DNA of 64,000 nucleotides from Datnioides undecimradiatus (lineage: Eukaryota; Chordata; Actinopteri; Lobotiformes; Datnioididae), in contig WARS01000013.1 in assembly GCA_008933995.1 (NCBI GenBank), forward strand, positions 15,255,806 through 15,319,805. Reading direction: 5' to 3'. Below the pieces are notes generated by a model that saw nothing but the letters and a program-made list of their open reading frames with translations, had not been told where the DNA came from and did no database searches. A program made the position numbers and the translations under genes. Within the stretch, counting starts at the first letter, position 1. The number at the start of each line of letters is the position of its first letter. Shown here piece after piece: positions 38,658-46,130 of this stretch.

Positions 38658-39931
38658 TCAGATGCTCAGGTCTTTGGGGTTATCCTTGTAGGTCTTCTTG
38701 GGCTCAGGGAGCGTGGGCTTGGATGAATGACTGGTTTTAGTCTTGAGCGTGCTGTAGTACTCTCTCACTTTTGCCGCTACAAAATTGTCATCGTCCTCTT
38801 CGTCCGCCGAGTCGTCCCTTATGAAGCTCCGGACCGGGGAGATGTCTCGTCCCAGGCTGCGGGTTCGGTACTCTGGCTCGGGGGAACTGGCTCGGCTGGC
38901 GTAGCGCCCGTCCCTCTCCGTCCTCTCAGGTGAGCGCCCCCTCAGCAGCGAGCTGTACCTCTTGTAGGCTGAATCTGAGTCTGGGGTGCGCACTCTAGGC
39001 AAGGTGATGTCTCTGTAGGCGTCTCTCTGGCCACGGGATGCCACGTTCCTCAGCAGGCTGTCCCCCCCGTAGGCTCTATCCATAGAGGAAGCTCTCATCA
39101 GCAGACTGTCCTCCCCAGAAAGGCGCGCCTCCCTTTGCAGCGTTGGAAGTGTGGCCTCCCTATTCAGGCGGTCCAGGGCTGGGCCCTCACGGAGGATGCT
39201 GTCCTCAAAAGGGAGGCTGAGTTCAGGAGTCTTGGATGGCTCCTTCAATACGGCCTCGTCCCCGTTGGGCTTCTCGTTGCTACGGCTCTGTCTCTCTGGG
39301 GAGGTGTACCGGCGGTAGGGTTCTGAGGAGTGGGCATGACGTCTGGTGGGGGAGTGGTGTCGAGAGCGGTGGGGGGACCTGCGGCGGCGTGGTGACCTGT
39401 GGCGGCGGGGCGAGCGATAAGGAGAACGGTGGGGCGAGCGATAAGGAGAACGGTGGGGTGAGCGGTGCCGGTGATGTGAGGAGGGGTGGTGACCATGCCG
39501 TCTGTCGGGGGAGCGGCCATAACGGTGGCCCCCATGACGGCTGTCCAGGGTGTTTTCTGCACTGCGTGACTGGCTGTGCCCCTTATCAGGCGAACGGTGG
39601 CGATGACGGTGGTGTCCACTGGAATGGTGGCGGTGGCCGTCACTTCCCTTGTCATCTTTCTTCTTTAACAGCTTCCCCGTAGACTTTTTCCCCTTGTGTT
39701 TTCCTGTGCTGGTTTTCTTGGTGGGGGAGCGGTGGCGGTGTTTGGAATGGTGTTGCTTGCCGGTGCCGGCAGAGTGGTGGCTCGGCTCCTTCTTGCTCCG
39801 GGATGATTGGTTGGGTTCTGGTGTGTAGCTTGACTCCGATGGTGCATTTGTTGGGGGCATGTTGCTCACTTCCGCAGCGTTTTGTAACCCTGAGGCTGGG
39901 TTGGCTGCGCTGATGTCGTTGGGGCCGCCGT
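38658..39931 (-). CDS. magi1: magi1 last exon, Arg/Ser/His-rich tail ending DLSI
   Basis: The acceptor TGTTGCAG leads in phase 1 to 424 codons including the stop. The order is a Ser/Pro/Asn-rich start (DGGPNDISAANP), a Lys/His-rich segment, a GHRHHSSGHHRHRHRSPDKG region, SRSAENTLDSRHGG, a strong RSP repeat block (HRSPYRSPHRSPYRSPRR), then acidic and charged segments with RYSSLLRGRSPERTERD, DDSADEEDDDNFVAAKVREY and the end KDNPKDLSI. Human MAGI1 long form has RSADNTLERR, a long RRRSPERR block and the end CSTDLSI, so the architecture and last residues agree. The long mammalian form is reported to be nuclear. The tail offers many Ser-Pro and Arg-Ser sites, suggesting phosphorylation control. DLSI fits a class II-like PDZ ligand pattern. 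Confidence 0.93.
39407..39460 (-). repeat. 24-base tandem repeat coding RSP units
   Basis: Within the magi1 last exon a 24-base unit occurs twice in full, followed by a partial third copy. It encodes the alternating RSPH and RSPY motifs, so the RSP block has grown by in-frame tandem duplication. Confidence 0.85.
39866..39931 (-). CDS. magi1: alternative-frame start of the magi1 last exon
   Basis: Entered in phase 0, as the cassette exon at 41014-41093 would require, the first bases of the last exon read TAAPTTSAQPTQPQG then YKTLRK and stop (TGA 39868-39866). I recall a human MAGI1 isoform continuing NQTT with TPAATATAPPP, while the human long form has DPSSDRHGPATGP at the same exon start; those two strings look like two frames of one sequence. 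The fish Ala/Thr/Pro-rich reading resembles the human one, which supports real use of this frame. Confirmation needs transcripts. Confidence 0.6.
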   Translation of the reverse strand, partial: TAAPTTSAQPTQPQGYKTLRK

Positions 39932-41013: not shown

Positions 41014-41093
41014 CGTGGTCTGATTTTGGAGGACAGAGGCCTCCCCCATCTTGTCATTTCTCATACATGCAGTGAGATGGGGAGCGACCATCC
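41014..41093 (-). CDS. magi1: magi1 alternative cassette exon (GMVAP exon)
   Basis: After a good acceptor (GTCTTCCTTCAG) the sequence, entered in phase 1 from the PDZ6 exon, reads GMVAPHLTACMRNDKMGE then ASVLQNQTT. I recall MAGI2 continuing VPEY with GMVPSSLSMCMKSDKHGS, and a MAGI1 isoform with ACMRNEKLGE and NQTT, so this is a family-conserved alternative exon. A weak donor, ACG before GTTTGTAA, fits the conserved NQTT boundary and gives 80 bases leaving in phase 0. Spliced on, it would enter the last exon in a frame different from the RS-rich one and stop at 39866. If that donor is skipped the frame stays open to a second donor, AAG before GTGAGATG, ending at 40807. Confidence 0.75.
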
Positions 41094-42368: not shown

Positions 42369-42374
42369 TTTATT
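42369..42374 (-). terminator. candidate polyadenylation signal for the short magi1 form
   Basis: The minus strand reads AATAAA here, about 405 bases past the short-form stop at 42779. The sequence just beyond is not clearly GU-rich, so the assignment is weak. It is the first exact AATAAA I found on that strand after the stop. Confidence 0.35.

Positions 42375-42778: not shown

Positions 42779-46130
<3,352 letters not shown>

Follow-up and report, generated by a model that had tools for sequence, protein, structure and literature searches.

A frame-shifting cassette exon and a two-frame last exon in fish magi1 and its paralogs suggest a splice-controlled C-terminal switch

Three C-terminal isoforms of the mammalian scaffold gene MAGI1, named MAGI1-a, -b and -c, were reportedly described by Laura and colleagues in 2002. 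In excerpts from later accounts, MAGI1A, B and C are splicing variants that differ downstream of the last PDZ domain, where frameshifts produce unique C-termini (PMC8428372). The mouse forms a, b and c are given lengths of 1139, 1171 and 1374 aa, with a c-specific region of 251 aa that carries nuclear localisation signals (PMC8231924, in excerpt); subtraction from these lengths gives a shared part of 1123 residues and unique ends of 16 aa for a and 48 aa for b. MAGI1-c is predominantly epithelial and MAGI1-b is found predominantly in brain and heart, and all three are present in neuronal tissue (PMC8231924). Two general types of event, each again cited from excerpts, are also relevant here. 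In splicing-accessible coding 3'UTRs, independent evolution has been offered as a possible reason for the lower conservation of the extended ends (PMC7392665). In dual coding by non-triplet splicing, described from nematode data, one stretch of DNA yields two peptides according to splice choice (PMC13247117). For dual coding in MAGI genes, or for retention of the two frames by fish genes or by paralogs, our literature search gave nothing among the matches listed; its coverage mostly excludes subscription journals and does not include the founding MAGI1 splicing papers.

The locus studied here lies on the minus strand of the window, by which we mean the whole stretch of 64,000 nucleotides of Datnioides undecimradiatus DNA that was analyzed. 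As read from its translation, the PDZ6 exon (42829..42967) ends in VPEY and exits in phase 1. It is followed by a cassette exon of 80 nt (41014..41093), entered in phase 1 and left in phase 0, which encodes GMVAPHLTACMRNDKMGEASVLQNQTT and is bounded by AG and GT. The last exon begins at 39931, preceded by ...CTCTGTTGCAG, and its coding part in the direct-join frame spans 38658..39931. When the cassette is skipped, the join of PDZ6 to the last exon reads ...VPEYDGGPNDISAANP... and the stretch 39866..39931 encodes DGGPNDISAANPASGLQNAAEV; this frame continues as a 424-aa RS/His-rich tail, ends in KDLSI and stops at 38660-38658. When the cassette is included, ...QNQTT is followed by TAAPTTSAQPTQPQGYKTLRK from the same stretch and by a TGA at 39868-39866. 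The short frame is thus open for 21 codons, an overlap of 63 coding nt. Most of the 424-aa tail lies beyond 39866, in what is 3'UTR for the short form, so that skipping of the cassette carries the reading frame into that region. These coordinates and phases, and the two readings of the last-exon start, had been claimed in a preliminary description, and translation of the minus strand confirmed all of them. If reading continues past PDZ6 into the adjoining intron (42779..42828, minus strand), 16 residues are added after PEY before a TGA is reached, a candidate MAGI1-a-type end, with AATAAA at 42374 and 41249 downstream of it. This 16-aa end is not kept in a second magi1 gene of the same genome, which reads GR and then a stop.

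In a phmmer search, PDZ6 with the cassette-form end matched human MAGI2 (1wfv, E 9.6e-16) slightly better than human MAGI1 (2r4h, E 7.7e-15), and both matches cover the PDZ6 part only. We nonetheless call the locus magi1 and not magi2, because another locus of this genome, on contig C472, matches 1wfv far better (E 3e-22).

Comparison with mammalian MAGI1-a/b/c, to the extent of the excerpted accounts, shows the same gene, the same site after the last PDZ domain and frameshifted unique ends. The unique ends of the fish forms measure 16 aa for the read-through form (62-46) and 48 aa for the cassette form (94-46), equal to those of mouse a and b; for MAGI1-b this is a match of end length (1171-1123 = 48). 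In view of these matches, the read-through, cassette and direct-join forms are very likely the fish counterparts of MAGI1-a, -b and -c, respectively. The long ends differ in size, with 251 aa in the c-specific region of the mouse protein as excerpted and 424 aa in the fish tail. The tissue distribution reported for mammalian MAGI1-b and -c (PMC8231924) fits a tissue-regulated switch, which might by extension operate in fish. The excerpted mammalian accounts make no mention of both frames being kept in fish or in paralogs, nor of selection on the overlap.

Skipping of the penultimate exon of magi1 extends the reading frame into the 3'UTR of the other isoform, as in the splicing-accessible coding 3'UTRs; set against the excerpted account of these (PMC7392665), the proline-rich end in fish magi1 is the short, exon-included one, and the layout is common to MAGI paralogs, unlike the independent evolution suggested there. 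Like the genes with non-triplet-splicing dual coding (PMC13247117), magi1 has a cassette whose length is not a multiple of three and two open frames, so that one stretch specifies two peptides by splice choice. As far as the excerpted nematode study goes, third-position conservation differs there between dual and single regions, and the MAGI genes behave likewise when their overlaps are compared with their tails. Of the overlaps described below, the one in the window passes the 60-nt recoding threshold of that study (63 nt), and those of the second magi1 gene and the magi2 pair (54 nt) would fail it.

Our main reading, to which we give a probability of roughly 0.85, is that splicing controls a C-terminal switch in these exons, with dual coding of the last exon as its basis. 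Both transcripts would be made and translated in this fish. Skipping of the 3n+2 cassette would join PDZ6 directly to the last exon and yield the long basic tail with its KDLSI end, which we take to be PDZ-ligand-like. Inclusion would shift the frame and yield a short Pro/Thr-rich end, with a unique C-terminus of 48 residues, and would in this way remove the nuclear-localisation and PDZ-ligand features of the tail. With each of the two stops inside the last exon, neither transcript would be expected to be a target of nonsense-mediated decay.

The 581-Mb assembly that contains the window was searched for paralogs with the PDZ6 exon and cassette as query. This gave 37 rows, ten of them with E <1e-7, namely nine PDZ6-like exons, all of which were followed, and the cassette of the window itself. 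Contigs C471 and C472 have the same last-exon start and were counted once, which leaves eight MAGI-family loci. These two contigs are both ~7.97 Mb long, with near-identical magi2 regions, and are probably two haplotypes or a redundant part of the assembly. A query made of the window cassette and short frame found its own locus and one weak match (E 0.84); the short ends of the paralogs, missed by this query, were therefore located by where they lie relative to the PDZ6 exon, downstream of it. Apart from magi1 and magi2, the gene names are our own reading of the loci: one member of each remaining pair was searched, and among solved structures MAGI2 1wfv ranked first, followed by the unnamed 2djt. 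A single 8.9-Mb contig carries three of the MAGI-family loci (C496:221126, 4379805 and 5687100), and two of these are a pair on opposite strands whose PDZ6 exons are nearly identical (96% of 49 residues).

A two-frame last exon with a cassette is present in six of the eight loci, that of the window included, and a cassette counterpart is readable in all eight, recognised by eye only in the magi3-like pair. The cassettes of the six two-frame loci are 80, 92, 89, 89, 92 and 92 nt long, all 3n+2. In the second magi1 gene (magi1B, C469) the cassette is 92 nt and the last exon reads either TAAVTGTLPHPGHKTLRK and a stop, or DGSSDGHPPTPGAQNTPEVR...KDLSI and a stop, so that KDLSI is common to the ends of both magi1 genes. 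At the two magi2 loci, C472 and C334, the cassettes measure 89 nt and the short frames read IMPPHGMLALQPPQACRK and TVPAPGIPFLQPTLPCRK, respectively, each closed by a stop; the PDZ6 exon of C472 is identical to human MAGI2 1wfv over 41 residues. In the fourth MAGI-like pair, on C496, the cassettes are 92 nt, a length that depends on the donor chosen, since an alternative GT lies four bases earlier (88 vs 92 nt in C496a); the short frames are AVSTESPPPPSCITPRSRVWLQ and ALRKEHSPPPPLHTQRSRMWIQ, again followed by stops, and the direct-join tails are long and charged. Use of the earlier GT in C496a and C496b would leave a two-residue end after ENT or ENS at both loci. The overlaps amount to 63 coding nt in the window gene (magi1A), 54 in magi1B and the magi2 pair and 66 in the C496 pair. 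In the magi3-like pair (C496:4379701 and C315:1168001) the cassette counterpart carries its own stop (after ...CFYMKPEHH and ...CYYTEHQH), an apparent different solution to the same C-terminal switch.

The direct-join frames of the magi2 loci remain open for 242 aa (C472) and 231 aa (C334), in sequence that follows the short stop and would be 3'UTR in the short form, the form in which standard human MAGI2 presumably ends. Open frames of these lengths have P 0.017 and 0.00035 under a first-order Markov null. Within a set of eight tails, that of C472 matches that of C334 (E 1e-6), and around SPGPWKIPGSDKL/TPGPWKVPSSAKI it also matches both tails of the magi3-like pair (E 9e-5 and 0.002). On this evidence, the direct-join frame of magi2 has the look of a genuine protein tail. 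A Pfam scan of three tails (magi1A, magi2a and one of the C496 pair) matched no family.

Selection on the short frame was examined in three pairs, magi1, magi2 and C496, all paralogs of one genome. The short-frame ends within these pairs are visibly alike: GYKTLRK and GHKTLRK, PPQACRK and PTLPCRK, and RSRVWLQ and RSRMWIQ, each before a stop. In a synonymous null, the main-frame proteins were held fixed, codons were drawn at random and short-frame similarity was measured by BLOSUM score. For the last 8 codons, a window picked after the alignment was seen, P was 0.0014, 0.0068 and 0.00045 (magi1, magi2 and C496; combined 9e-7); for the right-hand 18 codons it was 0.018, 0.004 and 0 of 20,000 trials. 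The test was calibrated on 55, 43 and 51 overlapping windows (149 in total) of the single-coded tails, which gave a mean z of 0.04, 0.45 and 0.30. The dual stretch exceeded the highest tail window of the same pair in each case, with z of 3.34 vs 3.14, 2.81 vs 2.77 and 3.29 vs 2.66. Windows on other exons of the magi1 pair reached z 3.0-3.1.

In the main frame, third-position differences were counted at 17 of 54 codons of the dual stretch, with just 15 codons of the magi1 pair's stretch being alignable, and at 477 of 731 tail codons (P 1.5e-6). The deficit is not significant when exons elsewhere in these genes serve as the reference (230 of 520 codons, P 0.08); this exon control is mixed and not purely PDZ, as it includes the magi1-pair linker and the magi2 and C496 cassettes, and it omits matches with <60% identity, with E >1e-8 or inside the magi1 cassette, as do the exon windows of the synonymous test. 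Tail windows were added as a control because the exons are more constrained than the tail.

In a placement test the number of substitutions was kept and their positions were randomised, with both frames open and the stop codon excluded, for two gap placements and two directions. Pooled over the three pairs, the short frame was spared (P 0.00075-0.004), compared with 0.25-0.48 for the tail frame and 0.19-0.30 for the third frame; without the open-frame and stop conditions, P was 0.0001-0.0014 for the short frame and 0.07-0.31 for the tail. By pair, over the full stretch, the short frame gave P 0.04-0.05 for magi1, 0.08-0.10 for magi2 and 0.006 for C496 (combined 0.0015), such that the magi1 pair is borderline and the C496 pair alone is clear. 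For the last 8 codons, chosen post hoc, the combined P was 0.00035 for the short frame and 0.64 for the tail. Taken together, and best in the pooled data, these results argue with moderate strength that the short frame is constrained in the overlap.

Conservation of the stretch can also be viewed at the level of the nucleic acid. The third frame is likewise raised in the synonymous test (z 2.2-2.4), so that part of the conservation is at the nucleotide level, and the magi2 cassette reaches z of up to 4.1-4.3 in the same test (4.1 in a frame without known use), with P<=0.007 in 7 of 12 windows. As this cassette equals or exceeds the dual stretch, the test is not specific to the dual stretch in magi2. 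Between C472 and C334, third positions of the cassette differ in just 9 of 43 codons, flank included, an unusual conservation that suggests RNA-level constraint. Such constraint is thus one contributor to the conservation, most plainly in magi2. Extended to the whole phenomenon, this becomes the proposal that the stretch is conserved as RNA, as splicing enhancers at a regulated acceptor, and that the short peptide is an unselected by-product. Splicing signals do often sit in the first bases of regulated exons, and the magi2 pair, taken by itself, favours the tail frame (P 0.03-0.04) rather than the short frame when the full stretch is considered. We consider the proposal unlikely all the same, given that, of the three frames, the short one alone is spared by the pooled substitutions, and that the short-frame codon count is kept even though the stop differs (TAG/TGA in the magi2 pair, TAG/TAA in the C496 pair).

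Still more improbable, in our view, is a cassette that represents noise or a poison exon, combined with a second frame open by chance, although openness as such is to be expected: when main-frame codons were swapped for synonyms in 20,000 trials, 94% of these left the second frame free of stops over 21 or more codons. Openness was accordingly rejected as evidence of dual coding (P 0.94 by chance) and says nothing by itself. What speaks against noise is that a cassette counterpart can be read in 8 of 8 loci, always 3n+2 in the six with two frames, and that the end length of mouse MAGI1-b, taken from the excerpted account, is matched at 48 aa; against a poison exon, inclusion leads to a stop in the last exon and hence would not trigger decay by the usual rule. 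As the arrangement is retained by the paralogs of magi1 in this genome, the double use of the magi1 last exon looks ancient and selected.

How old this arrangement is had been addressed by the preliminary description through two putative human MAGI1 isoform strings, one of them TPAATATAPPP, which it proposed to be two frames of one exon start. One DNA can indeed write both, and codon compatibility in exactly these two frames was found in just 25 of 200,000 shuffles of the second human string. A full-text literature search for six peptide strings, including the two human ones (one of them shortened), returned no match. The further proposal that dual coding has lasted since the fish-tetrapod split is supported by the published frameshift isoforms, by the 16- and 48-aa lengths in mouse and by paralogs with a short frame that is protected in pooled data. 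Two scans of sequence collections (genome contigs and viral contigs) gave no copy of the magi1 gene from other species. One PDZ match in the genome-contig scan, CAMUBM010000096.1 from a Tenericutes metagenome bin, is 40% identical to MAGI PDZ6 and is possibly contamination; the viral contigs yielded no match.

Because the arrangement is found in magi2 and in the fourth MAGI-like pair as well, it may be older than the fish-tetrapod split. The split between MAGI1 and MAGI2 dates from the early vertebrate duplications. The cassettes are recognisably alike across the MAGI families, and the last exons of magi1B, magi2a and magi2b each have 18 short-frame codons that end in RK and a stop, behind an acceptor of the same phase. 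Between magi1 and magi2 the short peptides bear a weak resemblance (P 0.03-0.07 for 8 codons and 0.03-0.43 for 18 codons), and the six-locus alignment is poor beyond the cassette; a common origin is therefore argued from the shared layout and not from the peptide. From this layout, the arrangement was probably present before the MAGI1, MAGI2 and MAGIX-like genes separated. On balance we also lean towards a wider statement, less securely than towards the switch itself: the frame-shifting cassette and two-frame last exon would be ancestral to these genes, kept in 6 of 8 fish loci and among the older cases of splice-controlled dual coding in animals; the "3'UTR" of magi2 would hide a conserved tail, close to whose end lies SPGPWKIPGSDKLP; and in the overlap, constraint would act on the short frame and not on that of the long tail.

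To our knowledge, deeply conserved dual coding is uncommon outside viruses, and many proposed cases come without evidence of selection on both readings. The same two-frame last exon across a set of scaffold paralogs would amount to a replicated natural experiment, in which an overlap evolves in parallel in several genes. MAGI2, which is studied in the synapse and the kidney, may make a long-tailed form from what would be the 3'UTR of its short form, and variants in this would-be 3'UTR could matter.
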